Assembly (NCBI GenBank): GCA_024734495.1
Contig: JALMQS010000075.1
Location: forward strand, 3,712,935-3,776,934
Direction: 5' to 3'
Length of the DNA stretch: 64,000 bases
Source: Forficula auricularia
Lineage: Eukaryota > Arthropoda > Insecta > Dermaptera > Forficulidae
Shown here: positions 7,184 through 63,750 of the stretch, one piece after another
How positions within the stretch are numbered: the first letter of the stretch is position 1
Layout: each line of letters opens with the position of its first letter
The notes under the pieces: generated by a model
The model's input: the letters and a program-made list of their open reading frames with translations, nothing else
What the model was told of the DNA's origin: nothing
The model's database searches: none
Position numbers and translations under genes: made by a program

Positions 7184-7432
7184 TAATAACTGAGCAAGAT
7201 GCGAGGTAGGTTTCACAAAAGAAATAAATAAAATTGAGTTTTTGAATTCGATATATTAGGTGAGCCCATCATCAGTTTACTTTGACTCCTGATGATGGAT
7301 TACCCTCGAAACATGGAATCAAACTAATTTTGTTTTATTTTCTTTTGTGAAACCTACCTCTCATCTTGCTCAAGTTTTATTATTATATTAAAATGTTTCA
7401 CCTAGAACCAACATCTAACTCCTTAAGTTATT
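7184..7432 (-). mobile_element. Palindromic hammerhead-family element with 10-bp target duplication
   Basis: The direct repeat AAAAGTTCCA flanks it at 7174-7183 and 7433-7442. Arms of about 80 bp beginning GAGCAAGATG and containing GTAGGTTTCAC are inverted around 7260-7315. The centre carries CTGATGA at 7289-7295 and GAAAC at 7308-7312, with a decayed partner (TCATCAG) on the other strand. The one-sided head, TGTTTCACCTAGAACCAACA, lies at the right, so the element reads on the minus strand. The ribozyme core looks damaged. Confidence 0.75.
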
Positions 7433-7541
7433 AAAAGTTCCAGTTCAAAAATGCAAAAGAAAAAATCTATCCATGATTTTTAACAGTGAAATCATAATAT
7501 AGGCATAAATAAGCAATGTTATATTATAGTTTAATATTAAT

Positions 7542-7870
7542 TAATAAAGTGAAGGGTGAGTAGTTTCTACAGTGAATGAAGAACTTTAAAGAGGTTTGAG
7601 TACAAACTCGATATATTTCGGATTAGTCCATCATTTGTGACTCACAGGCCAAAAACTGAAAACTCACTACCCTTTACTTTATTAATTAATTACTATTATT
7701 AATTAATTGTAATGTTTTTAACCTGTAAACTCCTGATGATGGACTAATAATTCGAAATATATTGAGTTTGTATAAACCTCTTTGAGTTTTACTTCATTCC
7801 CTGTGAAACTACACACCCTTTACTTTATTAATTAATATAATGTTACACCTAAAACCTAAACTACTTTCCC
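7542..7870 (-). mobile_element. Palindromic hammerhead-family element, AATAAAGT subfamily
   Basis: Arms beginning ATTAATAAAGTGAAGGG are inverted at 7542-7660 and 7740-7835. It belongs to the same subfamily as 44017-44701 and 63605-63750. The right end carries the head TGTTACACCTAAAACC. The left-arm core is eroded (TCATTTG instead of TCATCAG); the right-arm core is intact in outline. No clear target duplication. Confidence 0.75.
7727..7769 (+). ncRNA. Hammerhead-like ribozyme motif
   Basis: Stem I is AAACTC paired with GAGTTT. Inside it are CTGATGA, one extra T, a weak stem II (GGA with TTC), GAA, the self-complementary ATATAT as stem III, and T as the cleavage base. The order matches a type I hammerhead with a stem III that would work best as a dimer. 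Confidence 0.55.
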
Positions 7871-7939
7871 TAAGTAAAATTTATTATTAATTACTACGAC
7901 ATATCTAGCGACCCGAGTCTTGGAAAAATTTTCACTTTT

Positions 7940-8215
7940 TTTCTTAATTAATAAATGTGCGGAGGCGATTCTTTCATTAGAATCCGATCGAGGAAAATAA
8001 CTAAAAAGGGTGTGGATAGAATGATATAACTTCTTCCTTTATAGCGAAGGAAATGCAATTCAAGTCCTGTTCAGACTATTAAAGATTCAATTTTTAATTT
8101 CTATTATTCTAGGAATGGCTCTTGGATCAAAATTATACTCGTTATAGAGAGAGCAAATATTTAATTGAACTTCAATAAAATTCAGACAATAATGTGAAAA
8201 AAAAAATACCTGTTC
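7940..8215. repeat. Interspersed repeat D, copy 1
   Basis: Shares with 61410-61560 and the tandem block at 62378-62700 phrases such as GAGCGATTCTTT-like starts, CTTCCTTTATAG, TCAGACTATTA and TTTCTATTATTCTAG. Orientation is the same in all. No coding capacity; class unknown. Confidence 0.6.
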
Positions 8216-8394
8216 TAACTGGCAAACGTACTGGGCCGTGAAAAAGTTTTACTTTTTTTTTCATTTTTATCATTCAATAGAAAAATTAGATTCATAAAAA
8301 AAAATCGTCTTAGAAAGTTTGTTCTGTAGCAAAATTTTTGTATTTTCAATGCGGAGAACTGTTTAGATTTTGGTATCTTTAAGCCAGTGTTTCT

Positions 8395-8559
8395 CAACCT
8401 GTGTGCCACGAGAGTTTTTGACAAATAATTAAAATTCCATGGGTTTTGTAACTTTGAAATAGTATTTGTAATTACTTCATTTTTGTATATTTAGGTGTTC
8501 CGCAAATGATTCCAGATATTTTTAGTGTGCCGTCAACCAAAAAAGGTTGAGAAACACTG
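8395..8559. mobile_element. hAT-like MITE with CAGTGTTTCTCAACC ends
   Basis: Terminal inverted repeats CAGTGTTTCTCAACC and GGTTGAGAAACACTG are perfect. This end sequence is typical of the SPIN/Charlie-like hAT group. It is 165 bp and non-coding. I do not see matching 8-bp flanks, so the insertion is old or the flanks have mutated. Confidence 0.85.
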
Positions 8560-9570
8560 ATCTATATACTTAAATAAGATGATAAATAATGACACTATTA
8601 TTTACACTTTTTTTCTTTACCTTTACCTTTTGATAATCGATTAGCTTCGCTTATTTTCTTATTGATTAAATATAAAAATATTTCTCAATTTTTTTCCCCT
8701 AATCCCTTTCTGGGTCTTATGAGATTTTTTTTTTTTTTTTTTGCTCCAATTTGAAAGCTACCTGTCTGGTAAAAAGAAGCCTCCCTCGTTTTCCTTCGGG
8801 ACCATCATTATTATTTTTATTGTCCGTTCTCCGATTGTGTTGTGAGATGTGCTGCTCAAGAATCTACCGGAGCGAATATTCTCCATTGCTCTGGCCTCTT
8901 TCTAACTCCATCTAATAGAGATCTAATCACCTGTCCGCAAATTACCTAAAGAGCTCAGACAGCCTAAAGAATCAATTCAATTCTCTTTTGGTGTTGTAAA
9001 CCCCGGAATTCGTTTCTTATTCATTCAAGGTATCTTTCGCCTAATCTTCGATCTCTTTCTATTTAACATTGTATTACGACAGAAGAACAGGTTATCCGCT
9101 TCAGTTTAGGCTGCGTCCAAAAATAAACATTAACAGAGCTGGTCATTTACTGGCGAATGCGCCGGTCAAGTTGTAGATACTGGGCAACCTACTTTAATTC
9201 TGAATTCAGTCTCATTGTCGTCAAATTTGTTGTCAATGGCTTTGACATATTTAAAACATCGATTCCCAAAGAGTCGAGAGAAATTAAGCAACATATAGCG
9301 CGATTTGCTCGGTGGCGGATTACTCCCTAGAACTGTGTAGAATTTTTACAGCTTTCCCCAACCTGCTCGTGTTGCGTGCATCCCTAACTTAGTGGATGGA
9401 ATTGATTGGGAGGGAGTTGCGACCCACTATCTTCGCTAGAAAAGTAGCCACTATATTCCTTAAGAGTATATTGTATTACCAGTGGAGATATAAAAACTGG
9501 TCACTATAACATACTATATATATTCATCTAGATTAATTTGTAACAACGCTTAGAGAAATTTCTCTAAAAA
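8560..9570. other. Mixed AT-rich DNA, nothing recognised
   Basis: Contains a poly-T run near 8727-8742. A moderately GC-richer stretch at 9100-9440 has no long open frame and no copy elsewhere in the window. It may be single-copy DNA or an unidentified old element. Confidence 0.3.
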
Positions 9571-9577
9571 AATTACC

Positions 9578-9648
9578 CTCTTGCCTAGAATCGAACCGAC
9601 GAACTCTTGAACTATGGTCGTCAGCTCTAACCACTAGACCAATGTCAC
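9578..9648 (-). repeat. tRNA-like sequence, probable SINE head
   Basis: On the minus strand an A box (TGGTCTAGTGG) is followed about 45 bases later by a B box (GGTTCGATTCT), the internal promoter of RNA polymerase III. The acceptor arms do not pair, so it is not a functional tRNA. The following bases to about 9520 form a body partly shared with 21310-21345. Confidence 0.65.
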
Positions 9649-10165: not shown

Positions 10166-10177
10166 GTATTATATAAT

Positions 10178-10449
10178 TAAGGACTATATTTTTTTTATGC
10201 AGATAATTTATATTTTTTTGCCAACGTTTCATCAACTTTGTTGACTTCTTCAAGGCTCAAATAGTTATTTTCCCCTCATATTTGTCATTGATGTTAATGA
10301 CTTGCCTTGCTATGTTTACTAAGAAAGAATAATTATAAAAATGACAAATATGCAGGGAAGATAACTATTTGAGCCCTGAAGATGTCAACAAAGTTGATGA
10401 AACGTTGGCAATAAACTATAATTTATTTGCATAAAAAATAGTCCTTATT
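10178..10449 (+). mobile_element. Palindromic hammerhead-family element, ACGT subfamily
   Basis: Arms of about 110 bp (10178-10290 and 10341-10449) are inverted around a short spacer. Each arm carries a core: intact on the plus strand (see 10373-10409), decayed on the minus strand at 10226-10253, where the essential first C is T. Confidence 0.75.
10373..10409 (+). ncRNA. Hammerhead-like ribozyme motif
   Basis: Stem I GCC with GGC, CTGAAGA, extra T, stem II GTCAAC with GTTGAT around AAA, GAA, self-complementary ACGT as stem III, T as cleavage base. Stem I is only 3 bp, so activity is uncertain. Confidence 0.55.
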
Positions 10450-10756
10450 TCCCGATAACAACTTTAGTAATTTAATCGAGGACATAACTAATCAAAAAAA
10501 TATTATATAAGTTGATAAACACTAATATTTATATATAATATTTGCATAAAGTCGAAATAAACGGACTAGATATTTTTGAAGATATGAGATTATCCACAAA
10601 AACCAACTTAGTTTAATTGAAAAGATTTTGTTTTACCGAGAATAGCAGAGTTGTTGATCCATAAAGAGAAATTAATGATGATATCCTTTGCTTGATGCAA
10701 ATAAACATATATATAGGTACATACATATATATATATATACCAAATGTAAATATATG

Positions 10757-16239: not shown

Positions 16240-17310
16240 CAAAAAGATCCCGAACATGTTCGGAACTTCTACCACGAATGAAGCTATTAAAAGCTGCTTC
16301 TAAAGCCTAATTCTAAACCAACATCATATTCTATACATATCAATATATTTCCAAATATATGCTGAAAAAATATCACATCAACTCTTGGATTTCTTTCAAT
16401 TGGTATTTTTTTTTTTTAATAATTGGTTATATTATTTTTAAAATATATCCAAAATATTTTTATTCCAAATGATAATATTTGACTAATATATAAAATACAT
16501 TCTGTACGACCAATAAGTAATAATCCAACGAAAATTACGATTATTATCTTTTTAAATAAATGATCCATATTCTAGCCGAAAAGTGTTTTCTTTGGAATTG
16601 AATATTTACTTTAAACTAAATTTCAAATAATATTATTCACTTTTCACATACTGTACAATTTTATATTTAACTAAAAACGCTTCACACTCCTTCACATATA
16701 AAATACTAAAATTAGCAGATTTCTCTCTAATCGTTGAGATTTCACTATGGACTATTAATCACAGGGAAACTGTGTACTTATATTCCATTTAACTGCAATG
16801 AAACCTAAAATACTATTTAAATACATAATGAATTTTTTTTTCTCCTCGTCCTCACTTTTCCATTATTGGAATCTAAATATGAAAATTTACCATAAATAAT
16901 ATATGCGTCTCATTTATTTTGTTAGTTGACGTAATTAGTTAAATATAGTTATATCAATATTTGAAAACATTTTAAAACATTACTTAAAATATAGCGGATG
17001 CATTTTGCACAAAATGACAAAGCATATACTCTGTAACAATTAGGACATTGAAAAATTAAAACTGATAAACAAATTTAAGACACATCCCTGGAAATTAGTT
17101 CACTATCTATACGAAAATAAGTCTCGACTTTTTACTCGTGGAAAAAATAAGAATATTTAAAAATAGTTGTTCTTTTTTGTCTTGTTTGAGGGTGCCCCTT
17201 AACCAAATCTTGAGGGGATAATAGACCCTGTAAGTACTGCTAACTATAACATGAATGAAATCTCTCGGGAAAGAGGTCAAAATCATGAAGATGGGCTTAT
17301 ACCCCGAAAT
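16240..17310. other. AT-rich DNA, nothing recognised
   Basis: Very AT-rich. No repeats matching the rest of the window, no open frame and no motif that I can support. Confidence 0.4.
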
Positions 17311-17324
17311 ATAATTATATAGAG

Positions 17325-23548: not shown

Positions 23549-23850
23549 TAATCAGTAGAGATTGTGGTGTTGGTGCAAGGTGAAACATCTTTAATAAAGA
23601 TAAGAGTAAATAGATATTTTGTTTAATATGGATTTACTATGAGTTAAGGATACTGGGTCACTTATTTCACATTAAAATTAAAAAATTAAAAGATATAAAA
23701 TTTTTTTTCCTTTTTCAATATATATATTTCGGGCTATCAACCCATCTTCAGGAAATACAGAAGGTAACTGTAAAAAGGTAAATAAGTGACCCAGTATCCT
23801 TAACTCATAGTAAATCCATATTAAATAAAATATCTATTTACTCTTATCTT
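23549..23850 (-). mobile_element. Palindromic hammerhead-family element with 14-bp target duplication
   Basis: TAGTAAATTTCAGG flanks it exactly at 23535-23548 and 23851-23864. From the left: a one-sided head containing GGTGTTGGTGCAAGGTGAAA, a left arm (about 23592-23675), a centre with a minus-strand ribozyme motif, and a right arm (about 23780-23850). It is about 302 bp with no coding frame. A sister copy at 25730-26030 is about 90 percent identical by eye but has its own duplication. Confidence 0.92.
23713..23755 (-). ncRNA. Hammerhead-like ribozyme motif
   Basis: Minus strand: stem I TTTC with GAAA, CTGAAGA, extra T, stem II GGGTTGATAGCCC (three G-C pairs plus loop), GAA, self-complementary ATATATATAT as stem III, T cleavage base, then GAAA. 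All elements of a type I hammerhead order are present. Confidence 0.65.
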
Positions 23851-23864
23851 TAGTAAATTTCAGG

Positions 23865-24148: not shown

Positions 24149-25017
24149 AAAAATAATTTTTAAGAAAAAAAAATAAAACCGACTTCAAAAAATTAAATAC
24201 AACGAATAAAATACACTAAAAGATATAAAATAATCATTATCTTATTTAGTTATAACTAAACGACGAAATATTAACATGAAATTACTTTTTGAAGTCAGTG
24301 CCAAACAAACTATACCTATAAAGCGAGCGTACCCGCCAAACGTACTAAGTAAGATCCGTCGAGTGCGATTCATAAAAGGTATATGTTTGGCACCAACTTC
24401 AAAAAGTAATTTCATGTTAATATTTCGTCGTTTAGTTGTAACTAAATAAGATAATAATTATTTTATACCTTTTAGTGTATTTTATTTGTTGTATTTAATT
24501 TTTTGAAGTCGGTTTTTATTTTTTCTTAAAAATTATTTTTATTGTTCTCTTTTTAGTGATGTTATTAATAGTGATCATATCATCAGAACTTGACCAAATT
24601 AATATGACACCATCCCTAAGACACCCCCCTATCGGATAAAAAAAGAAACATCGAAATCGGTTCATAAACAAAGAAGTTAGGTCTAAAAAAACCTAATAAA
24701 AAGGTCTAATACCTATGAAAGGTAGGCTGAACCCAATGCAATTTTTTTTTTCAAAATCGGTTCACAATTGACGGAGATATGAGGTAACATAGGCACAAAA
24801 AAAAAAATTCAGTCGAATAGAGAACCTCCTCCTTTTTTGAAGTCGGTTAAAAATATTATTAAATATGCCTAGTTCTCGACGTCAATGTTTTGTGAAAGGT
24901 TGCTTTCGCGACACAAAATCAGATAAAGAACATACTTTTTTTAAACGACCTGAAAATCCTGAAATGTAAGTACTAGTAATTTATTTCTTTGATTTTTATA
25001 TGTTAATTCTTTAATAA
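24149..25017 (+). mobile_element. THAP-exon element, copy 1
   Basis: Three parts are shared almost base for base with 47464-48311 on the opposite strand. First a 395-bp palindrome (24149-24542) with arms starting near ACCGACTTCAAAAAATTAAA. Then a linker of about 320 bp that includes the GAGGAGGTTC/ACCGACTTC repeat in inverted form. Then a short exon encoding the start of a THAP domain with a splice donor. Homology stops in the intron near 25017. No terminal repeats or duplications were found. P-type transposases begin with a THAP domain, so a P-like element is the leading idea. Confidence 0.8.
24865..24965 (+). CDS. First exon of a THAP-domain protein, partial
   Basis: An ATG opens 33 codons plus two bases before GTAAGT at 24966. 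The product has C-x4-C (QCFVKGC) near residue 8, then HTFFKRPENP. This is how THAP zinc-finger domains (C2CH, DNA-binding) start; the remaining Cys and His would be in later exons. Read without splicing, the frame stops at once, so the donor is meaningful. The 47512-47612 copy is nearly identical at protein level (one proline to serine). The nearest candidate acceptor, TTATAG at 25023-25028, is followed by no THAP-like sequence, so the gene is probably truncated. It could also be a host-derived exon carried by the element. Confidence 0.65.
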
Positions 25018-25560
25018 TTTAATTATAGAGCTAAAGAGAGCGGTTCCCGCCATTTTATTGTCCATTCCGAATCTCTAGAGAGCTCTGTAACTCCTATATA
25101 CGCTAAAATACATTGGCTCCTTATGGACCTCTTCCACTCCATATTACTCTATGGGATAAACAAGCTGGCGAAAGTGTTTGTTCGAATTGTATTTTATTTG
25201 ATCCTCATCAAGGGATGGTGAATGTTTGAATTATTTTGAAATTACACTAATTAGTGAGGTGAATTTATAAAATATACCATGGTAATACTGCACCTGCTTC
25301 CGAAAAAACCCATCAAAAATATATTATATAAGTTTAATTTATTCGAAGTTGAGATTTTTGTATATGGGGATAAAAAGAAAAATATTTTATTCTATTTTTT
25401 TGTAAGAAGTGATTACTGTTCTGTTCTGTATTGATAAGGTTGTTATTAAAAAGAGAAAAAAATTGTATTTTTTGTGAATGTGCCAAATATCTTTTGAAAA
25501 TTGTTTTCTGATGGCCTTCAATGGTAACGAAGGTAATAAGAAAATTTAAACGAATGTGTG
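25018..25560. other. AT-rich DNA downstream of the THAP exon
   Basis: No clear continuation of a transposase could be read in any frame. The 86-residue minus-strand frame at 25334-25594 shows no family resemblance. Confidence 0.35.
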
Positions 25561-25575
25561 ACATGACTATTTGAA

Positions 25576-25612
25576 GCCCTGAAGAAGTCGGCAAAGTCGA
25601 CGAAACGTTGGT
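25576..25612 (+). ncRNA. Hammerhead-like ribozyme motif
   Basis: Stem I GCC with GGT, CTGAAGA, extra A, stem II GTCGGC with GTCGAC around AAA, GAA, ACGT stem III, T cleavage base. It lies in a fragment of the ACGT subfamily, related to 10178-10449, without clear arms. Confidence 0.55.
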
Positions 25613-25729
25613 GGATAAATAAAAAAGTCACACATAAAAACTTGTCCTTATTTTCCCAATATAAACTTTCAAATTATAAATTAAATTATGGACGGAAATG
25701 ATAATAATAAGAGTAAATGTAGTAAATTA

Positions 25730-26030
25730 ATAATTAGTAGAGATTGTGGTGTTGGTGCAAGGTGAAACATCTTTAATAAAGATAAGAGTAAATAAATATT
25801 ATATTTAATATTGATTTACTATGAGTTAAGGATTCTTGGTCACTTATTTCACATTAAAATTAAAAAATTAAAAGATGTAAAAAAATGTTTCTTTTTCAAT
25901 ATATATATTTCGGGCTATCAACCCATCTTCAGGAAGTACAGAAAGTAATTTTAATGTGAAATAAGTGACCAAGAATCCTTAACTCATAGTAGATCAATAT
26001 TAAACATAATATTTATTTACTCTTATCTTT
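25730..26030 (-). mobile_element. Palindromic hammerhead-family element with 13-bp target duplication
   Basis: ATGTAGTAAATTA flanks it at 25717-25729 and 26031-26043. Same architecture and orientation as 23549-23850: head, left arm, ribozyme centre, right arm. Both insertion sites contain TAGTAAATT, hinting at target preference. Confidence 0.92.
25895..25935 (-). ncRNA. Hammerhead-like ribozyme motif
   Basis: Same design as 23713-23755: CTGAAGA, extra T, GGGTTGATAGCCC, GAA, ATATATATAT, T. Stem I is reduced to TTC with GAA. Confidence 0.6.
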
Positions 26031-26043
26031 ATGTAGTAAATTA

Positions 26044-28322: not shown

Positions 28323-28374
28323 AAATGGGCCACTGAGGAAGTCGAAATAAATCGGTGAAACGTCTGGCCCATTT
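28323..28374 (+). ncRNA. Hammerhead-like ribozyme motif with 10-bp stem I
   Basis: Stem I AAATGGGCCA is perfectly complementary to TGGCCCATTT. Inside: CTGAGGA, extra A, stem II (GTCGA with TCGGT around AATAAA), GAA, ACGT stem III and C as cleavage base, giving the canonical GTC. This is the best stem I in the window. Confidence 0.7.
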
Positions 28375-31031: not shown

Positions 31032-31303
31032 GATTTGCGTCAACTTCGATTCCTATACACTCAAAATTGAAATTCGAGAAATTTATATTAATCGATTTAT
31101 GTTTGATATGGTTTTTAATTGATTCCGCGACATTTCAGCCCCCGACAAAACATCCCCCGACAAAATATCCCCCGACAAAATATCCCCCTACAAAATATCC
31201 CCCGACAAAATATCCCCCGACAAAATATCCCCCGACAAAATATCCTTCAGACAAATTATCTCATGACAAAATAAACCTTCCCCTCCTGAATCTTATGAGT
31301 AAT

Positions 31304-31565
31304 AGTTTTTAAGGAATTTGGTGTTGGTACTTGGTGAAACATTTTTTAAAATTATTGAATAAAAATACTTGGTAGGTTTCACATTAAGATATAAAAAATA
31401 AAACGAATTTATTTTTGGAGAATCTTTAATCTCGATATATATATTTCTCCTGAAGATGGGTTAGTCACCCGAAATATATATATCGAGATTAAAGATTCTC
31501 CAAAATAAATTCGTTTAATTTTTTATATCTTAATGTGAAACCTACCAAGTATGTTTATCCAATAA
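31304..31565 (+). mobile_element. Palindromic hammerhead-family element with 12-bp target duplication
   Basis: CTTATGAGTAAT flanks it at 31292-31303 and 31566-31577. Head with GGTGTTGGTACTTGGTGAAA, then near-perfect 80-bp arms (about 31358-31437 and 31475-31556) around a plus-strand ribozyme core. It inserted into the composite foldback. Confidence 0.93.
31444..31486 (+). ncRNA. Hammerhead-like ribozyme motif
   Basis: Stem I TCTC with GAGA, CTGAAGA, extra T, stem II GGGTTAGTCACCC, GAA, ATATATATAT stem III, C cleavage base. Every pairing is intact. Confidence 0.65.
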
Positions 31566-31582
31566 CTTATGAGTAATGCAAA

Positions 31583-32159: not shown

Positions 32160-32485
32160 GCTGCAAATTGACTGACTCGGTTCTTTTGTTTCGGACTTGG
32201 AAACGTGAGATCTCGAGCCTTATTAGCTTAGACAAAATAGGATTTTTTTTTCAAGATATTTCCCATCTCTCTTAGGCAAGAGAGACGGGAGTGAATTGGA
32301 GTTGTATCTAAAATTCCCTTTTGTTTTTGAATAATTAAAGGGTGGCTGGTGAGTTTTAATGAAGGCAGGGCTGCGCCCCATTGTGTCCCCGGTGGCAAGT
32401 GTCCCCGGCTCTGGAGGCCACTTGAGCACGTCGAGCTCAAGACAAAGGGCGCCCCGTCGATCGCTCGTCACCACCCTTGCTTGGC
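32160..32485. other. GC-rich block that continues into the first 549-bp repeat unit
   Basis: Contains GGCAGGGCTGCGCCCC and GAGCACGTCGAGCTC. Only its right edge, from CACAATCCACTGTC onward, is multiplied in the adjacent array; the block itself is single-copy. It looks like the ancestral locus from which the array expanded. Confidence 0.5.
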
Positions 32486-36590: not shown

Positions 36591-36594
36591 TATG

Positions 36595-36955
36595 TTGCAG
36601 TAAAAACCCATTTTTTTTACTAAGAACGCATTCTTACTAGTTAAAACGTGTTTCACTGAATACCTTTGTGGCAACTAGAGTTGGCTGATGTTTGTTGAGT
36701 TTGGTCCAAAGGTTTAGAATGTTTATTTTTGACCTTCAGCCTCATTTTGGGTGTTTTATTTTCAAAAATTTTTATACATAAATGCCAAAAACTGCATCCT
36801 CATTAGAAGCAAAGTTGTAGAGGATGTAATTTTTGACATTTTCGTTCAAAAATGAAGATTCTAGACCTTTGGACCGGACTCAATCAACATCAGTAAATTC
36901 TAATTTCCACAAAGGTATTCAGTGAAACGAATTTTAACTAAAACGGGTTTTTACT
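36595..36955. mobile_element. Foldback element L, complete copy at the array edge
   Basis: Ends CAGTAAAAACCCATTTT and AAACGGGTTTTTACTG; long arms around about 36800. A 60-bp sequence containing GGTGAAAGGAAGATTAATTA occurs directly before (36530-36589) and again after it (36984-37043), a direct repeat far too long for an ordinary target duplication and probably a by-product of array slippage. Confidence 0.85.
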
Positions 36956-37047
36956 GTTTCAATACCAAGACCTGGTATATTAGGTGTATTTAAGGGTGAA
37001 AGGAAGATTAATTAATTTCATCCTAAAGTGAAAATATGTATATACCA

Positions 37048-38698: not shown

Positions 38699-38984
38699 TA
38701 AAAAATGAATAGAAATGTTTATTTGCAAATTCTCTTATTTATCGAAATTCTAAGAAATTGATAACTGATAATGATGGCTGGCTGGTCTCTTTCTCCTTTC
38801 ATTCAATGTTCAGTTTATTCTAAGCAGGCAAAGAGAGAAGGGCGTTCTTTCTGGCCAGCCAGCCAAAGGTAAGACAAACGACATTAGGGTACTTTCTAGT
38901 ATCCTAAAACATACTTTCTCTTATTCTGATTGTTTATTTATTTGATTACATATTATAATAATTAACATTATACTATTTACTATA

Positions 38985-40070
38985 AAAATATGAATATACA
39001 GGGTGGTCCAAATTTTATTTACTAAAAAAATATGAATATACAGGGTGGTCCAAATTACATTTACTATAAAAATATGTGTATACAGGGTGGTCTAAATTTC
39101 ATTTACAATAAAATATGAATATACCGGGTGGTCCAAATTTCATTTACTATAAGAATATGAATATATAGGGTGGTCCAAATTACATTTACTATAAGAATAT
39201 GAATATATAGGGTGGTCCAAATTACATTTACTATAAAAATATGAGTATACAGGGTGGTCTAAATTTCACTTACAATAAAAATATGAATATACAGGGTGCT
39301 CCAAATTACATTTACTATAAGAATATGAATATACAGGGTGGTCCAAATTTCATTTACTGTAAAAATATGAATATACAGGGTGGTCCAAATTTCATTTGCT
39401 ATATATAAATATGAATATACAGGGTAGTCCAAATTACATTTACTATAAAAATATGTGTATACAAGGTGGTCTAAATTTCATTTACAATAAAATATGAATA
39501 TACCGGGTGGTCCAAATTTCATTTACTATAAGAATATGAGTATACAGGGTGGTCTAAATTTCATTAACAATAAAAATATGAATATATAGGGTGGTCCAAA
39601 TTACATTTACTATAAGAATATGAATATATAGGGTGGTCCAAATTACATTTACTATAAAAATATGAGTATACAGGGTGGTCTAAATTTCACTTACAATAAA
39701 AATATGAATATACCGGGTGCTCCAAATTACATTTACTATAAGAATATGAATATACAGGGTGGTCCAAATTTCATTTACTGTAAAAATATGAATATACAGG
39801 GTGGTCCAAATTTCAGTTTTTTACTATAAAAATATTAATATACAGAGTGGCCCAAATTGAATTTACTATAAAAATATGAATATACAGGGTGGTCCAAACT
39901 TCATTTACTATGAAAATATGACTATACAAGGTGGTCAAAATTTCATTTAGTATGAAAATATAAATGTACAGTGTGGTCCAAACTTCACCTTCTATAAAAA
40001 TATTTATACACAGGATGCTCAAAAATTCATTTACTATAAAAATATGAATATATTTCGTGGTCCAAATTTC
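38985..40070. repeat. 42-bp satellite, about 26 units, with higher-order structure
   Basis: Unit: TATGAATATACAGGGTGGTC then CAAATTTCATTTACTATAAA with small variations; GGGTGG recurs every 42 bp. A run of about nine variant units (39064-39435) is repeated in the same order at 39436-39815 with one extra unit, so a block of about 375 bp was duplicated. Because 42 is a multiple of three, a periodic minus-strand frame appears at 39813-40022; it is an artefact. Confidence 0.95.
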
Positions 40071-41339
40071 ATAGTGACCGTTTTAGATAATTTTTGTACC
40101 TATGACGTTTGGAAGTGTCCTAACTGAAAATTATGAAAAATTGCACTAATTCTCTCATTCTCTCCTTATCGAAAACAAATAAGATAGAATCTGAAATCTC
40201 AAGTATTTTTAAGATAAACGATACGGAACCCTCGATATGCAGTCATTGACAGAAGTAATTGAAAATCCGAGTTTATTTTTCCTTCTTATTTATAAATATG
40301 TTTCTATTATCCGAAAAATTCTTCAATGTAAATGTAAATACTTATTAAAAATTATTCCGTAAAAAAAGCGCCTGTATTTAGGCAACCAGTTCTACACTTA
40401 TATTCCTTGCCTCCGTCTAGCCTTCACGTAGTAAATATTTTCAAATATAAATTATTTTTTTTATCAGATTTACATTGTAACTGGTCTTAAGGCCTCCTAA
40501 CAATTTGATTGTGAAAAATCTTATAGCTACTCTTAAGATGTACATCTGTAAATGTCGTATCATAAGTAATGAACGTCCTTAACAAATTATTTAATAATCT
40601 TTTCATTTTTTATTTATTTTTGGTTTTAAAATGAATAATTATTGAAAATGAAATTTGTTAAGAAATTTGATTTTTTGTATATTATTTATGAAAAGAAATA
40701 TTTCTCATACCTGATTTATAAAATGGTGTTTTTGTCCAATTTGATGAATAATATGATTTTTGAAAGAGTTTGAAAAGGGAAAAAAAGATCTTTTAAACAG
40801 AGGATGGATAGGACATTTTAAAATATTAAATTAATCTATAAATACGAGTAGGTATATCAAAAAAATTATGGTAGGACTTACGATCCACGCGTGTTGAATT
40901 TGTTTTCGCACTACCTATTTGTTTATTAGATCAAACCATTTCCCACTTACGGCCATTACTTTAGTCAAGAACCTGTGAAATTAAGACATTTTCGTTGTTT
41001 TATTACTTTTTCGTGCTGTGTTCGATTTGTCGATTTCTTCGACTACTATAAAGCTATCTTGAAATCCTTATGATTATCTTTAATTTTAATATACCTTGGA
41101 ACATTCACTATCTTTCGTACTATTCTGTTCTGAAATGATGGTCTAATAATATTTTTTGTCAATAATAAAGTAGAATATTTCAAAGAAAGTTCCACATCTT
41201 AGTCGCCTATTCTAAATCACATCTAGGTTGTACTTATGATAGACAATTGTCAGCTGTCAAAATTTAGTAGTTTAGTAGATTATTATTATTAAATCAAGGT
41301 GATTTATTATTCAATCTCCCATAAATATTATTATAGTGT
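40071..41339. other. AT-rich apparently single-copy DNA
   Basis: No match to the window's repeats, no frame and no motif. One of the few long stretches free of recognisable mobile elements. Confidence 0.4.
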
Positions 41340-43706: not shown

Positions 43707-44080
43707 ATATATTATTATAAATTAAATAAAAAGTTGAAAATATTATATTCTAAAGGTCCTTTACATTGAGTGATTATCTCCTCAGCTTCAAGTCAAAAAG
43801 TATCATAACACTATGTGTATGTTAAAAGGCATAATATTATTTACAAAGGAAACGAGTGCCTATATTCATCCAAAAAATTTAATATTCATGCGTATCAAAT
43901 TCAATGCAAACTGCGACTAAATAACATAACATAAAATTCAATAAATAAATAAACAATTGGAATCTGAGAACATACACCTACAAAAAATGAGCATAGATCC
44001 TAAATAGATTGCTAATAGTTAATAAAGTAAAGGGTGTCTAGTTTCACAGTGAATGAAATAAAACTCAAAGAGGTTTATAC

Positions 44081-44123
44081 AAACTCAATATATTTCGGAT
44101 TATTAGTCCATCATCAGGAGTTT
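44081..44123 (-). ncRNA. Hammerhead-like ribozyme motif, left arm
   Basis: Mirror image of 44555-44597: stem I AAACTC/GAGTTT, CTGATGA, extra T, GGA-TCC stem II, GAA, ATATAT, T. Confidence 0.65.
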
Positions 44124-44554
44124 ACAAGTTAATACTAATAATAATTGAACGAGTGGTCGCCATTCTTGACATTCAAATCGTGGTTACCAATATAACAAAA
44201 TATAACATTCAAATCTTACATACCAACCTAACACAAGAAAAACACCAATGAAAATTTAAAATTTAAAAAATTGTTTTACAAAGATTTTTCTTTTTTAATT
44301 ATAAAATATATAAATGTAAATATAAGAAATCTCTCTCTAGATTTCTTATATTTACATTTATATATTTTATAATTAAAAAAAATAAAAAAAAATCTTTGTA
44401 AAACAATTTTTTTAAATTTTAAATTTTCATTGGTGTTTTTCTTGTGTTAGGTTGGTATGTAAGATTTGAATGTTATATTTTGTTATATTGGTAACCATGA
44501 TTTGAATGTCAAGAATGGCGACCACTCGTTCAATTATTATTAGTATTAACTTGT

Positions 44555-44597
44555 AAACTCCTGATGATGGACTAATAATCCGAAATATATTGAGTTT
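44555..44597 (+). ncRNA. Hammerhead-like ribozyme motif, right arm
   Basis: Stem I AAACTC with GAGTTT (6 bp), CTGATGA, extra T, stem II GGA with TCC around CTAATAA, GAA, self-complementary ATATAT as stem III, T cleavage base. Confidence 0.65.
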
Positions 44598-44794
44598 TAT
44601 AAACCTCTTTGAGTTTTATTTCATTCACTGTGAAACTAGACACCCTTTACTCTATTAACTAACATCATGTTTCACCTAAAACCTACACCACTTTCCATAA
44701 GTAGATTGCTAATGATAAAATTATTTAGATTCAAATTTTTACAATAATTTAATTTCATAAAGTAAAGAAAATTTTAAAACATAAAATTCTATGT

Positions 44795-46975: not shown

Positions 46976-47223
46976 TTTAGGGAAAGCGGTGTTGGTTTAT
47001 AGTGAAACATATTAAACAAAGGAATTATTATTTAACGGGTTATAGTGGTGTTTCACAAAGAGGAAATAAAATTAAAAAATTAAAAAATCTTTTAAATTAT
47101 TTTGGAGATTTTTTATTTATCTCTATACATATTTCGGGCTATGAACCCTTCATCAGGAGGTTAAACAGAACACTGAATATAAAATTTTTTTTATTTTTTT
47201 ACATAGTATCGATGTTATTGTAA
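46976..47223 (-). mobile_element. Hammerhead-family element, partial
   Basis: Head GGTGTTGGTTTATAGTGAAA at about 46990, one arm with TTTCACAAAGAGGAAATAAA, and a minus-strand ribozyme core. The second arm is missing, so it is truncated. Confidence 0.7.
47121..47159 (-). ncRNA. Hammerhead-like ribozyme motif
   Basis: Stem I CTC with GAG, CTGATGA, extra A, stem II GGGTTCATAGCCC, GAA, ATATGTAT (self-complementary with one wobble), A cleavage base. Confidence 0.55.
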
Positions 47224-47427: not shown

Positions 47428-47463
47428 GGTGTGCTTTGAAAATTTTTTTCATTATCTACTTAT

Positions 47464-48311
47464 TAAAGAATTAACATATAAAAATCAAAGAAATAAATTA
47501 CTAGTACTTACATTTCAGAATTTTCAGGTCGTTTAAAAAAAGTATGTTCTTTATCTGATTTTGTGTCGCGAAAGCAACCTTTCACAAAACATTGACGTCG
47601 AGAACTAGGCATATTTAATAATATTTTTAACCGACTTCAAAAAAGGAGGAGGTTCTCTATTCGACTGAATTTTTTTTTTTGTGCCTATGTTACCTCATAT
47701 CTCCGTCAATTGTGAACCGATTTTGAAAAAAAATTTTGCATTGGGTTCAGCCTACCTTTCATAGGTATTAGACCTTTTTATTAGGTTTTTTTAGACCTAA
47801 CTTCTTTGTTTATGAACCGATTTCGATGTTTCTTTTTTTATCCGATAGGGGGGTGTCTTAGCGATGGTGTCATATTAATTTGGTCAAGTTCTGATGATAT
47901 GATCACTATTAATAACATCACTAAAAAGAGAAAAATAAAAATAATTTTTAAGAAAAAAATAAAAACCGACTTCAAAAATTAAATGCAACAAATAAAATAC
48001 ACTAAAAGGTATAAAATGGTTATTATCTTATTTAGTTACAACTAAACATGAAATTACTTTTTGAAGTCGGTGCCAAACAAACTATACCTTTTATGAACCG
48101 TACTCGACGGATCTTACTTAGTACGTTTGGTGGGTACGCTCGCTTATAGGTATAGTTTGTTTGGCACCGACTTCAAAAAGTAATTTCATGTTAATATTTC
48201 TTCGTTTAGTTGTAACTAAATAAGATAATAATTATTTTATACCTTTTAGTGTATTTTATTTGTTGCATTTAATTTTTTAAAAGTCGGTTTTATTTTTTTC
48301 TTAAAAATTTT
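47464..48311 (-). mobile_element. THAP-exon element, copy 2
   Basis: Reverse complement of 24149-25017 with few differences, including the 47630-47935 linker and the 47938-48305 palindrome. Both copies end at the same intron position (near 47464 here, 25017 there). The equal end point suggests a shared boundary or a family of 5'-end derivatives. Confidence 0.8.
47512..47612 (-). CDS. First exon of a THAP-domain protein, partial (copy 2)
   Basis: ATG at 47612; same 33 codons plus two bases, then GTAAGT read on the minus strand at 47511-47506. The C-x4-C and FFKRPEN motifs are kept, with serine for proline near the end. The intron continues only about 45 bp before homology ends. No downstream exon is recognisable in the flanking LINE fragment. 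Confidence 0.62.
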
Positions 48312-48329
48312 TTTACTTCAAATGCGGCC

Positions 48330-49560: not shown

Positions 49561-49564
49561 TTTC

Positions 49565-49607
49565 TAGAGACTATAGTTTCGAAGGCATTGCCTTCATCAT
49601 CAGTCTA
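49565..49607 (-). ncRNA. Hammerhead ribozyme motif of the Penelope-like element
   Basis: Minus strand: stem I TAGA with TCTA, CTGATGA, one extra T, a 6-bp stem II GAAGGC with GCCTTC around AAT, GAA, the self-complementary ACTATAGT as stem III, then C, giving the canonical GTC cleavage triplet. It lies 158 bp beyond the stop of the GIY-YIG frame and on the same strand. Penelope-like elements are known to carry hammerheads in their terminal regions, so this is the expected place. The unpaired base after CTGATGA is non-canonical. Confidence 0.78.
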
Positions 49608-49764
49608 TCACAAATATTTCAAATTAGTTACAAATTAAGATTTATACATAGAAAATTTTGAAAAATATATAATGTCTTTTTCTTCATGTTTCTTCTTGGG
49701 AGATTAGAATATAACTGGCTCAATATCTGGGTTGCTCTTTTGTTTAGGCATTTTCTAATGAGTT

Positions 49765-50727
49765 TTACCTGAATGAATGGAATGTTTTTAAAAAAGGGTC
49801 ATTGATAATTTCTAGTTTTTCATTTAAAGATTCAATTGGGCTTTTTTCCAAGGATTTTAAAATTTCTAAAGAAAGAATTAAGGGGTCATTGACTTCTTTG
49901 ATCAATTTAATTTTGGATTGATCTGGAAAACTATGATTGTTAGCATTTAAATGCTCTGCAAATGCATAATTTTCATATTTTAATTTGTAGGCTCTCTTGT
50001 GTTCATTGATCCTAATGGATAAATTTCTTTCCGTTTTTCCTATATAAGTTGCATTGCAATCTTGGCATGTCAATTTATATACACCGGATTTTTCATTTTT
50101 CGGAATTTTATCTTTAATTTGACTTAATTCACTTCCTAATGTATATGGTGATCTAAAGATTGTCGCGTACCCTAAAGATTTTAATTTATGCTTTATTTTT
50201 TCGGACATCTTACCATAATATGGTAATATTAGTTTTGGCAGATCTTTAATTTGGGAATTTTGTGAATAGATTAAATTTAAATTTGATTTTTGAATTTTAC
50301 CTTTTAATATTTGATCTATTAAATTGCTTTCATAACCATATTTATAGCTATTTCTTTGATTATCTCTAGTTCTGTTAAAAAATGCTCTTTCTTTAATGGG
50401 ATACTATTTAAACGGTGGATCATTGAATGGAATGCTGCCAATTTATGTGACATTGGTCGACAAGCCATGTTGTGAATTACGGTATCTGTAGATGTATCTT
50501 TCCTATAAATTTCGAATGTGTGTTTATTTTTTTCAATTTTAATTTTAAGGTCTAAATAATTTAATGTTTTTTCTTTTTCTACGGTAAATTTGATTTTTTC
50601 ATGTAATGAATTTATATGTTTTATGAATTTATTGAGAATTCTTTCAGTCCCTGTCCATAAGACAATCACATCGTCAACATATCTATAATAATATTTGATA
50701 TATTGAGAGAATATACTTTTGTTCTCA
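49765..50727 (-). pseudogene. Penelope-like retroelement polyprotein, 5'-truncated, one frameshift
   Basis: The C-terminal part of a reverse transcriptase joined to a GIY-YIG endonuclease, the defining pair of Penelope-like elements. Segment one (50727-50337) holds the catalytic RT motif YRYVDDV, then LNYLDLKI, then YRKDTSTDTVIH and the HSMIHRL thumb region. A one-base frame change near 50337 (EIAIN to YGYE) leads to segment two, open from about 50340 to the stop at 49765. It contains LPYYGKMSEK, then SGVYKLTC-QDC-NATYIGKT (the GVY and YIG motifs with the CxxC typical of this group), the conserved R in IRINEH, and a late LNEK asparagine. The finger/palm N-terminus is cut off at 50728, where a hAT-like end begins. 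It is not functional as it stands. Confidence 0.93.
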
Positions 50728-50840
50728 CAGGGGCGTATCAACGGGGGGGGGGATTAGGTGTCAGGACCACCTCCAAGGGTAGGGCTCATGGGATGAGCAA
50801 CGGCAACGACAAACCGTTTCTTATGGCAAATAAAAAAATA
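50728..50840. mobile_element. hAT-like terminal fragment truncating the Penelope-like element
   Basis: CAGGGGCGTATCAACGGG, then a G run, then ATGGGATGAGCAACGGCAAC and CGACAAACCGTTTCTTATG, shared with 37081-37200. No right end recognised. Confidence 0.6.
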
Positions 50841-57074: not shown

Positions 57075-57225
57075 GTAGGATTCACAAATAAAAGACAAAT
57101 ATGAGCAAGACTATTATACATATATTTCGGGTTACGAGCTCATCTTCAGATGTTCACATAGAAAACTTTATTTGTGAATCCTACAGCTAGTAATTTTATT
57201 AAATGTTTCACCTATTTCCCATGAA
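57075..57225 (-). mobile_element. Short palindromic hammerhead-family element
   Basis: Arms containing GTAGGATTCACAAATAAA are inverted at 57075-57100 and 57165-57190; the head TGTTTCACCTATTTCC is at the right. The minus-strand core CTGAAGA (57143-57149) and GAAAT (57124-57128) is present, but stem II and stem I pair poorly, so it is probably inactive. Confidence 0.65.
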
Positions 57226-57900: not shown

Positions 57901-58105
57901 ATTTTCTTTTCGCCAAAAACGCTTCCAGTGAAGTAGAAATTAATTATTTTTTTAATGAAAATTACACAAGAATCTCTGAAGTTAATTCTGCTGGCTTGAT
58001 ATTAAAAATAACCCTTTGGAAAAAACTTGGCGGTGTTATACGGTATTAGTATAACGAAGAATATCATAAAGTAAATTATTTTTAGAGTTCGTGGCTGTGA
58101 TGAAA

Positions 58106-58438
58106 CTGTATTAGATCAAGGATGAGGTATCAGCCAGGGTTCTATGCGCTGGGTTCAATAAATCACCCTGAATAAAACGTTTCGGGCTGAATTTGTTTGG
58201 CCATCTTCAATTAATTCGGAGTTATACACAAAATGCGGTACATAATTGTAGCTTCATGCAAATTTATAACGTGCTTGTGCCCAAAGGTTCAGAATGAATG
58301 TAATGATTTATTGTGTATAACTCCCAATTAACTGAAGATGGCCAAATAAATTCAGGCCAAAACGTTTAATTCAGGGTGTTTTATTGAACCCAGCGCATCC
58401 AACTTTGGCTGATACCTCCTCCTTCATCTAATACTGTA
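58106..58438. mobile_element. Palindromic hammerhead-family element, TTTAT(T)GAACCCAGCGC subfamily
   Basis: Arms of about 120 bp contain GCGCTGGGTTCAATA and its complement. Each arm has a core: minus strand TTGAAGA with GAAACGTTT (58179-58210), plus strand CTGAAGA with AAAACGTTT (58332-58363). Each lacks one essential base (C3 or G12), so both are likely dead. Confidence 0.75.
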
Positions 58439-59330: not shown

Positions 59331-59333
59331 TTT

Positions 59334-59374
59334 AAACTCTGAAGAAGAAAGAAGTTCCTCCGAAACGTCGGTTT
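59334..59374 (+). ncRNA. Hammerhead-like ribozyme motif, weak stem II
   Basis: Stem I AAACT with GGTTT, CTGAAGA, extra A, a purine-rich segment that pairs poorly where stem II should be, GAA, ACGT stem III, C cleavage base (GTC). Confidence 0.45.
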
Positions 59375-59653
59375 TTAAGAGGATGCAATTAAATAAATTT
59401 CTTTTATTCGGAATTTTATTTTTCATTATCCTTCTAGACTTTCATCAATTCTCCATTATCTTTGATTACTCACAAAAGCTATTTTTAAGGAGAAATCAAA
59501 CTCAATGATTTCTCTTTATGAATCCAATATTTCTGCTACTCTAAAATAAATCTTTTAAAAATCTCTTTTATATTTAGTTTTTCAGACATCATTTATTTAT
59601 GGTCATTCTCACAGACTAACACAGTATAATTTAAATTTACCCAATTTATAATA

Positions 59654-61400: not shown

Positions 61401-61409
61401 TTTTTTGTA

Positions 61410-61560
61410 ATAAATCAGCGAATGAGCGATTCTTTTATTAGGATTTGTTGGAGGGAAATTACTAGACTAGAAGAATCATCTTTCTTCCTTTATAGTTAAG
61501 GCATTGTAAGGATTCAAAATTCAATTCCTATTAGATAATTTTTACTTTACCATACAGGGT
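61410..61560. repeat. Interspersed repeat D, copy 2
   Basis: Matches 7960-8100: GAGCGATTCTTTTATTAGGA, then CTTCCTTTATAGTTAAGG. Truncated relative to copy 1. Confidence 0.55.
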
Positions 61561-61929
61561 ATGGTCAAGTATTTTGATCGTGCATGAAAAAAGTGTTTTT
61601 TTTCCTTCTTTTTTTTCGAAATATCTCAAAAACTGCTGAAACTATTTCGACTAAAAAAATTGAGCGAAACCATGTCATTTCGCTCTACAAAAAAGCTCTA
61701 ATAAGTGAACATCGAAAAAATTATATTTTTCGAGATAATAATTGTTTTGTCGAAATGTCTGTTAGTTAGATAGTTAGTCTGTGCGTTACCAAATTTTTGT
61801 GGACGAGCTAGCTCAAAAACTAGTTTGAATATCGAAACCAAATTTCACACGTAGTTTTGGTCCATTGAGATTAAGAGCTGATTAGATTTTGGTGCATATC
61901 GACCCAAAATTAAGGGAGGTTAAAAATTA
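61561..61929. other. Unassigned AT-rich DNA
   Basis: No match in the window; the 61-residue frame at 61584-61769 has no resemblance. Confidence 0.35.
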
Positions 61930-62370
61930 ATAATCTAGGCTATTTGAGCAAACTCAACCAAATTTTGTATACATAATCAGTAGACCCCCAGAAGTCTAAA
62001 AATGCAAAATCTAACCGGCCAAAATGGGGGGTGGGGGGTCAAAAAATGAAAATCTTGGCCATTTACCAAACTCAACCAAATTTTGTATACATAATCAGTA
62101 GACCCCCAGAAGTCTAAAAATGCAAAATCTAACCGGCCAAAATTGGGGGTGGAGGGTAAAAAAATTAAAATCTTGGCCATTTACCAAACTCAACCAAATT
62201 TTGTATACATAATCAGTGTGCCCCTAGTAGTATAAAAATGCAAAAACTAACCCCCTCTTCTACATGATTATAAATAATTTTATTAAATATTAATGTAAGT
62301 GAGGGGCCAGGTTGTATGGTAAAGTCAGGTGGATGGCCACATCAGAACACGTCAGCTTATTTAATTTCTA
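61930..62370 (-). repeat. Interspersed repeat H, copy 2, with three tandem 118-bp units
   Basis: CAAACTCAACCAAATTTTG recurs at about 61949, 62067 and 62184. The right part (62265-62360) is the reverse complement of 14967-15090, including CCTGGCCCCTCAC and TGACGTGTTCTGATG inverted. Confidence 0.85.
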
Positions 62371-62377
62371 TTCTTCT

Positions 62378-62780
62378 AGAAATGGCCTTTTGGCTTCTGA
62401 ATTTGGACTAAAGTGATACTCACCAATAGAGATAAAGAAATTTCAAGGATTCATGTTCAGACATGTTTCAGACTATTATAGATATATATTTTTTTTAATT
62501 CCTATTCTTCTAGAAATAGCCTTTTAGCTTTTGCATTTGGACCAAAACGATACTCACTATAAAGAGAAAGAAAGGATTTTATATTCAGACAGTTCAGACT
62601 ATTAGATAAATTTTTTAATTTCTATTATTGTAGAAATGGCCTTTTGCACTTGTACCAAAACGATACTCGCTATAGAGAGAAAGAAATTGCTATTAGACTT
62701 CACTAAAATTCAGACAAAAATGTAGATAAAACATAAATCACATGCTGCACTCTAGCCGGCGAGCATAGTGAGTCTTAGAA
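62378..62780. repeat. Repeat D units in tandem, three copies
   Basis: TTCTATTCTTCTAGAAATGG and variants start units near 62378, 62496 and 62619; each has CAGACTATTA and a GATACTCAC/GATACTCGC segment. Related to 8090-8215. Confidence 0.75.
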
Positions 62781-63275
62781 AAAAACCTTACATTTTCCAC
62801 TATTTCTTTGTTATTTTTAATTTTTCATCATAGTTATTCCGATCATGGCCCCTAGACTCCAAAACCACCATCCATTCAAAAGTTTATATATATATGTGGC
62901 TGTGAGTGGTAAGGTCAGGTGGGGTAACTGGCCCAGCTTCTTTTGTTTTCCCAAGGATAGTACTCCATATTTTTGGCTATAACTAAGCTTCCTCACAATT
63001 TATAGATCTCGTGACTATATTAATTGAAAGATGAAATTTTCTTCAAATATTCATGATACTTTCAACTTTTGATTATACAAAATTTTGGAATTATCTTAAG
63101 TTGAACGTAAAGTTTTGCGGTTGGCCCAGTTAAACGCGTTGTGAGGTAATTGGACCAGCCCAGCCTATTTGCTGTTTTTTTAATTTTTAACATCTTTTGA
63201 GCAGTTGGACATGTTCCCCTATCCCTCAAGGCCCTGAACGTAGGTAGAATTAGTCTCATTTGTATATGGATTAAA
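62781..63275. other. Unassigned DNA
   Basis: A duplicated TGGCCCAG / TGGACCAGCCC-type word near 62930 and 63122; no gene. Confidence 0.35.
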
Positions 63276-63293
63276 ATAACACTGCCCAACAAT

Positions 63294-63600
63294 GAAAATG
63301 CTTCGGGCTCAAAAATAGCTGATTCTTATGTATTTCCACCTGCTGAATTCAAAAATCACCATAAAGATTACCAATTAGCTCTTGTTTTGAGATATAATCG
63401 ATCAAAACGGTGATAAAGACCATTTTGACCTATTTTCGAGTTCCGTTAGATATTAAACAACAATATTTGAGATCACAATATTTTGTTGAACTAATAGAAA
63501 ACAGCTTCCTCTTGGATTTACAAATTACCACTTGTTTGTAGCTCAATTAGAACTCGAGTTATAACTAAAAAACTAAAACTACGTGATTATAAAGGATAAT
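63294..63600. mobile_element. Foldback element M, copy 3, cut by a hammerhead element
   Basis: Left arm only, from CACTGCCCAACAATG to ACTACGTGATTATAAAGGAT at 63598. The palindrome's second arm is replaced by the element that starts at 63605. Confidence 0.8.
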
Positions 63601-63604
63601 AAAC

Positions 63605-63750
63605 ATTAATAAAGTAAAGGGAGTGTAGTTTCAGAGTGAATGAAATAAAACTCAAAGAGGTGTATACAATCTCAATATATTTCGGATTATTAGTCCATCA
63701 TCAGGAGTTTACAGGTTAAAAACTAATCTGTAAATTCCTGATGGACTAAT
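63605..63750 (-). mobile_element. Hammerhead-family element, truncated left arm
   Basis: Same left arm as 44017-44200 (TTAATAAAGTAAAGGGAGTG, then AAACTCAAAGAGGTG). A partial second motif (CCTGATGGACTAATAA) follows at 63734, lacking GAAA. Confidence 0.8.
63671..63707 (-). ncRNA. Hammerhead-like ribozyme motif
   Basis: Stem I CTC with GAG, CTGATGA, extra T, GGACTAATAATCC stem II, GAA, ATATAT stem III, T cleavage base. Confidence 0.6.

Follow-up and report, generated by a model that had tools for sequence, protein, structure and literature searches.

Hammerhead-like motifs in putative pseudo-LTRs of Penelope-like elements of Forficula auricularia, and templates that mostly appear uncut

The analyzed window is a 64,000-nucleotide stretch of the Forficula auricularia genome (assembly GCA_024734495.1, contig JALMQS010000075.1, positions 3,712,935 to 3,776,934 of the forward strand). 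It carries dispersed copies of a hammerhead-like ribozyme motif, a number of them within short insertions made of two inverted arms, and one copy lies behind the remnant of a Penelope-like open reading frame (ORF). Considered as a whole, these features are probably best explained as hammerheads in the pseudo-long terminal repeats (pLTRs) of Penelope-like elements (PLEs), which would have been inserted by two-sided target-primed reverse transcription through the uncut motif.

Hammerhead motifs of the window

The features are given below. Insertion arms were assigned to four families (A to D) or to an ACGT type named after stem III, and were classed as tail or tailless (near-site), the tail arm being longer than the near-site arm by about 40 nt or more. 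E values are those of a custom covariance model.

7183..7426: family D head-to-head insertion, tailless arm 7183-7275 (minus strand) and tail arm 7273-7426 (plus strand), target duplication AAAAGTTCCA
7282-7324, plus strand: decayed family D hammerhead in the tail arm of 7183..7426
7534..7881: family A head-to-head insertion, tailless 5'-truncated arm 7534-7634 (minus strand) and tail arm 7710-7881 (plus strand), without a clear target duplication (longest shared word 7 nt)
7726-7770, plus strand: hammerhead with stem III ATATAT in 7534..7881
10175..10500: ACGT-type head-to-head insertion, tail at right (about 50 nt), target duplication TATTATATAA
10214-10260 (minus strand; weak, E 0.03) and 10369-10415 (plus strand): ACGT hammerheads of 10175..10500
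17278..17322, plus strand: family B-like hammerhead copy absent from the preliminary description, E 1.7e-6
23549..23857: family B head-to-head insertion, tail arm 23549-23769 (minus strand) and truncated tailless arm 23780-23857 (plus strand), target duplication TAGTAAATTTCAGG
23714-23758, minus strand: hammerhead with stem III ATATATATAT in the tail arm of 23549..23857
25572..25618, plus strand: ACGT-type hammerhead sharing 76% identity with the 10369 copy across 108 bp
25731..26032: family B head-to-head insertion, tail arm (minus strand) with hammerhead 25895-25939 and truncated tailless arm (plus strand), target duplication ATGTAGTAAATTA
28326..28373, plus strand: ACGT-type hammerhead with a 10-bp stem I
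31304..31568: family C head-to-head insertion, tail arm 31304-31447 (minus strand) truncated at the motif GAA, target duplication CTTATGAGTAAT
31444-31568, plus strand: tailless arm of this family C insertion, with hammerhead 31443-31487
44010..44703: family A head-to-head insertion with two hammerheads, 44080-44124 (minus strand) and 44554-44598 (plus strand), target duplication TAGATTGCTAAT; the inverted repeat extends about 190 bp upstream of both hammerheads
47119..47163, minus strand: hammerhead with stem III ATATGTAT (G-U self-complementary)
49564..49610, minus strand: hammerhead with stem III ACTATAGT, behind the Penelope-like ORF
49765..50753, minus strand: Penelope-like ORF remnant split over two frames, with 50319-50753 as the reverse transcriptase YVDD part and 49765-50403 as the GIY-YIG endonuclease part
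57112..57156, minus strand: decayed hammerhead copy absent from the preliminary description, with G after the ATATAT block
58105..58437: ACGT-type head-to-head insertion, tail at left, target duplication GTAAATTAT
58169-58217 (minus strand; weak, E 0.16) and 58325-58373 (plus strand; AAA replacing GAA): ACGT copies of 58105..58437
59332..59378, plus strand: ACGT-type hammerhead with a weak stem II, E 8e-5
63605..63721, minus strand: family A tailless arm with hammerhead 63667-63711

The preliminary description, made from the sequence alone, had named 13 places with a shared motif. A strict descriptor, composed after these sites had been inspected and including the hammerhead core itself, required CTGANGA, 0-2 unpaired bases, a stem II of at least 3 bp, GAA, a self-complementary block, a non-G base and a stem I of at least 3 bp. 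It matched 11 motifs on both strands of the window compared with 0 in 200 dinucleotide-preserving shuffles; these are 11 of the 13 places, 47121 and 59334 not being caught. A covariance model was built from 39 copies, all outside the window (39 of 40 listed references, C1:477 being left out), and with filters off it recovered every one of the 13 places (E 6e-9 to 0.0023), including that at 63671, which had been rated weak and turned out strong (E 1e-8). As the model contains 3 bp of structure and derives from the same families as the window copies, it acts mainly as a sequence profile. It added four places at E ≤ 0.012 (17278+, 57112-, 58325+ and 7282+) and a further eight matches with E values of 0.03-0.78, four of which are the opposite arms of listed elements; the remaining four may be due to chance.

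For the fold, a 332,971-bp sample consisting of the window and fetched loci, mostly picked around pattern hits, was scanned with the cleavage base left free and gave 93 motifs. The core order CTGANGA / GAA between stems I, II and III is present in the window motifs, as the descriptor demands, and the extra unpaired base after CTGANGA, which had been pointed out as a departure from the textbook core, is found in 92 of the 93 motifs. The cleavage base H17, predicted to be non-G and unrestricted in the scan, is C in 45, T in 38, A in 10 and G in 0 of the 93 sites, which stem from few independent families, by our own estimate perhaps about 15 unrelated ones.

Stem III has no loop of its own and is replaced by a self-complementary block of 4-10 nt, which reads ATATAT in 44 copies, ACGT in 22, ATATATATAT in 11, ATATATAT in 10, ACTATAGT in three and three other sequences once each (n = 93); the block of the 47121 copy, ATATGTAT, self-pairs solely through G-U. 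When the scan did not demand self-complementarity, such a block still followed GAA at 12 of 12 sites in the window and 81 of 87 elsewhere, compared with 4.1 and 29.9 for shuffled letters (pooled, 93 of 99 against about 34 expected), which bears out the block first noticed in the window.

The covariation claimed for stem I also held. After 92 of the 93 sites had been collapsed to 45 distinct stem-II strings, stem I positions paired in 139 of 180 cells, a level reached by 0 of 2000 shuffles of the 3' halves (mean 87, maximum 109), in which relatedness among copies is not preserved. Extra pair types in stem I were less exceptional, being matched by 25 of 2000 shuffles, and at least three contiguous stem I pairs are present in 64 of the 93 copies and fewer in 29. 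Pairs 1-3 of stem II were demanded by the scan and thus provide no independent evidence, whereas stem I was not demanded. In stem II, the homologous copies at 10369 and 25572 read GTCAAC/GTTGAT and GTCGGC/GTCGAC; an A-T pair is replaced by G-C, and two further changes affect one side only without loss of pairing. Together, the stem I covariation and this compensatory stem II change support a type I hammerhead fold in which a self-complementary stem III takes the place of the loop, and we infer such a fold for the RNA of these copies. In folding calculations on 11 copies, some fold other than the dimer hammerhead had the lower energy in all 11; the dimer hammerhead exceeded the cofold minimum by 1.2 kcal/mol in two copies that combine long A/T blocks with a 4-bp stem I, and by more in the remaining nine. 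Calculated energies thus give no general support to a dimer hammerhead.

The pattern CTGANGANGGR-N4-9-YCCGAAATATAT occurs 10,488 + 10,439 times in the assembly (1.06 Gb, 845 contigs), and the reversed control 0 times. One family has a 25-nt word close to its 3' end that was counted 3,275 + 3,337 times. The ATATAT pattern had 0 matches in viral contigs, and two matches in GTDB genome contigs (Calothrix and a Butyrivibrio metagenome-assembled genome) were rejected as chance.

Head-to-head insertions and the link to Penelope-like elements

The copies had been proposed to belong to one mobile family. A mobile origin is supported by the Penelope-like link of the ACTATAGT copy and of family D; a single family is not, as several are present (ACGT, ATATAT to ATATATATAT, and ACTATAGT). 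The frame-broken ORF at 49765-50753 on the minus strand matches GIY-YIG with an E value of 2.6e-6, above the Pfam cut-off, and its YVDD part matches RVT_1 with an E value of 2e-4, below the cut-off; the ACTATAGT hammerhead at 49564-49610 lies 154 bp behind it. The GIY-YIG fragment of the window has three protein neighbors, one of which (P0001) is 89% identical. At C4:402800, the stop codon of a GIY-YIG ORF is followed after 290 nt by the C3 of a family D hammerhead, with TCAGTTT just before it, and then by the tail; an inverted D arm lies at the far side of the ORF, and the whole is flanked by the target duplication CGTAATTAAATA. A second family D locus with the same GIY-YIG ORF is present at C4:288500, and a weaker GIY-YIG match (35%) adjoins a family A element at C4:754500. 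These arrangements tie the ACTATAGT copy and family D to PLEs at the level of sequence. For families A-C and the ACGT types the link is suggested by the shared anatomy of their arms. As part of the explanation favored here, and with the same fairly high confidence, the motifs are read as minimal type I hammerheads in the pLTRs of several PLE families.

The insertions have a consistent architecture. Alignment to the four family arms showed a head-to-head partner no more than 1 kb away for 78 of 84 arms of families A-D, and a convergent or direct one for none; arms scoring below 100 bits were excluded from this set, as were seven satellite copies at 32.8-36.2 kb. Tandem sense copies that could act as a dimer are thus not seen among the 84 arms, in a sample that held no complete tandem PLE locus. 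Among 100 listed places of the genome, 21 neighbors lie within 1.5 kb, and all 17 that are closer than 130 bp (42-129 bp apart) are head-to-head, the other four (two '+-' and two '--') being at least 579 bp apart. As the arms are mostly inverted halves, the transcript of one insertion with two hammerheads would hold one sense and one antisense copy rather than tandem sense copies.

Pairing of the arms initially gave 43 pairings, of which 36 had one tail, three were tailless-tailless and four were unclassified on at least one arm. Two of the tailless-tailless pairings are repeats of a tandem-tail locus (C1:28951), and in the third the arm at 7534 is matched to a 31-bp fragment. Applying score limits while allowing a wider distance yielded a set of 36 elements, made of 33 one-tail rows, two wider elements (7534-7881 and 44010-44703) and one with an unclassified arm. 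Exactly one arm carries the tail in 35 of 35 classifiable elements, the 36th having one arm just beyond the class limits. Of the 36 elements, 31 have a target duplication of at least 8 nt at their outer edges (median across the whole set, 12), compared with 7% for mismatched flanks. Among seven ACGT-type pairs, hand-picked from the site list, six show a duplication of 9-15 nt directly adjoining one arm and separated from the other by 26-50 nt (no null was run). Where a single arm is truncated (query position > 25), it is the tail arm in seven elements and the tailless arm in eight.

The two arms of an element were also compared with random partners, leaving out the duplicate C4:809000 and low-overlap pairs (usable elements: A 16 of 18, B 5 of 5, C 3 of 4, D 7 of 8). 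In family A, own arms differ by 0.039 compared with 0.060 for random partners (0 of 2000 permutations), and in family B the similarity is weaker (P 0.03). The simplest reading for family A is that both arms of an element came from a shared source RNA or locus.

Several junctions have features of their own. At C3:701486, two family B arms (q43/q43) meet inside the ATATATATAT stem III block, and this palindrome may also serve as an annealing site for the joining of cDNA ends. The junction spacers at C3:899452-899523 and C4:759515-759582 hold short pieces of the same arm, from around the cut site and from the 3' part, which might reflect a jump of the reverse transcriptase while the ends were being joined. 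Two family A elements, C4:784332 and C4:814189, which lie 30 kb apart, have a tandem CAGTATTAGCT spacer in common, oppositely oriented in the two, and are probably an inverted segmental duplication.

Uncut templates and a proposed mode of integration

With thousands of pLTR arms in the genome, sequence alone can be used to ask whether the templates of successful insertions had been cut by their ribozyme. Among 72 arms, 61 run through the predicted cut, and the ends of two fall within 3 nt of it. An AGTT or AGTA located 15-19 nt before C3 marks the approximate beginning of full arms, and 49 of 72 reach within 8 nt of this point or beyond. In 46 of 70 arms an AGT is present 13-21 nt upstream of C3, compared with 18 of 70 when a control offset is used. 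For the ATATAT families, the apparent RNA start is AGTT/AGTA, which longer copies show within TCAGTT and which resembles the arthropod initiator TCAGT. A genome search for family A junctions with one full arm and the other truncated around the cut gave 161 matches. No peak at the predicted cut was seen among the 100 of these that were listed: six of the 100 are compatible with an end exactly at the cut compared with 3-13 at other positions from +6 to -12, and 31 have junction overlaps of 1-4 bp. A ribozyme-cleavage footprint at arm 5' ends was thus not detected, either in the 72 arms or, for family A, in the 100 listed junctions. As arms cross the cut and junctions do not peak there, most of the RNAs that became the examined insertions appear to have been uncut by their own predicted ribozyme, in agreement with the finding that ribozyme mutants leave insertion in vitro unchanged (PMC11167929).

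The following mechanism would account for these features. The hammerhead would lie close to the 5' end of the element RNA, with two alternative starts of reverse transcription behind it, roughly 26-50 nt apart ('tail' and 'no tail'). The element enzyme would cut both target strands about 12 bp apart, and both strands would prime reverse transcription, one per start site, with RNA of a single source locus as template. Both cDNAs would run back through the uncut hammerhead toward the RNA 5' end and be joined there by end joining. The expected product is a head-to-head inverted pair with outward hammerheads, one tail, one target duplication and independently truncated inner ends. Pair geometry, the one-tail rule, target duplications, mostly uncut templates and the resemblance of family A arms are directly visible in the sequences; the priming on both sides is deduced from the insertion products. 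A purified PLE protein has been found to cut and extend both strands, with two internal starts that bound the genomic tail (PMC11167929).

Several points weigh against this explanation, beginning with the indirect route just named to two-sided priming. In the same in vitro study top and bottom strands were alike in their start site (PMC11167929), while each element here would use both sites, and the inverted junctions of rotifer Penelope have been attributed to self-priming on an antisense template (PMC3846280). The proposed RNA start is read solely from an end of similarity, and the far end of the tail is bounded by query length, which leaves its exact position unfixed. Own-arm similarity reached no significance in families C and D (P 0.34 and 0.18), and later gene conversion between arms could mimic a common source. 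Finally, the Rfam hammerhead models, a search proposed in the preliminary description, gave no match in the window (gathering score or E ≤ 10) or in three short stretches, a silence consistent with a stem III that lacks its loop and with the extra base behind A9.

This silence is also among the observations that would fit hammerheads that are relics, no longer cleaving in this host and kept as a binding or start region for the PLE enzyme. The unpaired base after A9, the absent stem III loop, the weak stem I of many copies (the 29 of 93 mentioned above), the passage of templates through the cut site and the preference of all 11 folded copies for another fold point the same way, as do the lack of effect of ribozyme mutants on in vitro insertion and the absence of RNA-seq ends at the cut (PMC11167929). 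Mere binding, however, would not require the constraints that are seen, namely a stem I that covaries across families, an H17 that is never G and a self-complementary block far in excess of expectation, and we regard relics as possible but doubtful.

Self-priming before integration, in which the 3' end of antisense element RNA folds back and copies itself and the hairpin cDNA is then inserted, has been proposed for the palindromic head-to-head junctions of rotifer Penelope (PMC3846280). The junction overlaps of 1-4 bp would fit such a priming step, as would the greater likeness of the two arms of one family A element, which suggests a common template. By our reasoning, however, the copied arm should then always be the truncated one and always of one class, whereas truncation affects both classes about equally; the family B q43/q43 junction joins arms inside the ATATATATAT palindrome without a hairpin loop, and one end per start site together with a target duplication fits DNA priming better. 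The equal truncation and the one-tail rule favor two-sided target-primed synthesis, and self-priming seems rather improbable.

A reading given similarly little weight takes stem III as primarily a template-pairing device and only secondarily part of a ribozyme. A dimeric PLE particle would prime each strand at its own start, either on two RNAs of one locus or with two reverse transcriptases on one RNA, and the core would be crossed uncut. The putative cleavage would then lie off the main pathway or trim the capped 5' ends of surplus RNA, and the one-tail rule would be the record of an asymmetric dimer.

Foldback or miniature inverted-repeat-type DNA transposons, whose terminal inverted repeats held the motif by chance, would account for inverted arms and target duplications but are very improbable given the independently truncated inner ends, the two kinds of outer ends with one of each per element, the GIY-YIG ORFs between arms at two loci and the arrangement shared by hammerheads of unrelated sequence. 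Equally remote are metazoan retrozymes, small tandem elements spread as circular RNAs excised by hammerheads, which also place type I hammerheads in short AT-rich repeats (PMC7229834), since direct neighbors are lacking, arms end near the apparent RNA start and not at the cut, and cut-bounded tandem units of 150-450 bp were not found in the sample.

Minimal type I hammerheads of PLEs were reportedly described by Cervera and de la Pena in 2014 and by Lunse, Weinberg and Breaker in 2017. PLE minimal hammerheads are presumed to act as dimers (PMC7761336, PMC6155905, PMC6466107), and like them the present motifs have a loop-less self-complementary stem III, a pLTR location and thousands of dispersed copies. 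They differ in that most sampled copies carry ATATAT to ATATATATAT in stem III and others ACTATAGT, besides ACGT, and in that the sampled copies are head-to-head and not tandem. Rotifer Penelope shares head-to-head pLTRs and a tail on one inverted copy, with target duplications of 8-10 bp (PMC3846280), whereas the insertions described here are mostly arms without an ORF, have strictly one tail and are truncated about equally in both arm classes. PLE hammerheads, head-to-head pLTRs and tails are already in print.

The closest parallel in mechanism is Poseidon of Anolis (PAc), likewise a GIY-YIG PLE with a hammerhead 5' of the start region, two internal tail-defining starts of reverse transcription, cutting and extension of both target strands, and unprocessed RNA as the dominant template, there in vitro (PMC11167929). 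That study concerns one element in vitro, whereas the present data are a genomic footprint of several families with one start per arm. Metazoan retrozymes (PMC7229834) have in common type I hammerheads and short, AT-rich, non-coding units; the present sample differs in having no tandem units and in unit ends that do not lie at the cut.

In the literature found, which did not cover the founding PLE hammerhead papers, arm ends had not been used to test template cutting and no strict one-tail rule was stated. Stem III palindromes of A/T with 6-10 nt were likewise not met there, published PLE hammerhead alignments lying outside that coverage. The role of the hammerhead in PLEs has been termed a mystery (PMC7761336), and a template that was apparently not cut in most insertions examined bears on what the PLE ribozyme does, while the one-tail rule and the equal truncation bear on the mode of PLE integration.

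Other repeats in the window

A 549-bp satellite occupies 32480-37043, with seven near-identical units and diverged ones. The seven units carry a 69-bp piece that is 94% identical to the 3' (tail) part of family D, and a PLE tail appears to have been captured into this tandem repeat. Further satellites lie at 3893-5868 (118-119 bp), 38975-40072 (42 bp), 31139-31273 (15 bp) and 61922-62252 (118 bp). Rfam microRNA matches in the window, all under gathering scores, correspond to long inverted repeats. The regions 24151-25026 and 47451-48314 are inverted copies of one unit, with 96% complementarity across 597 nt and 88% across 171 nt. Broken ORFs at 2941-3584 on the minus strand match Pfam HTH_32 and HTH_29, both below cut-offs, and resemble a mariner-type transposase.

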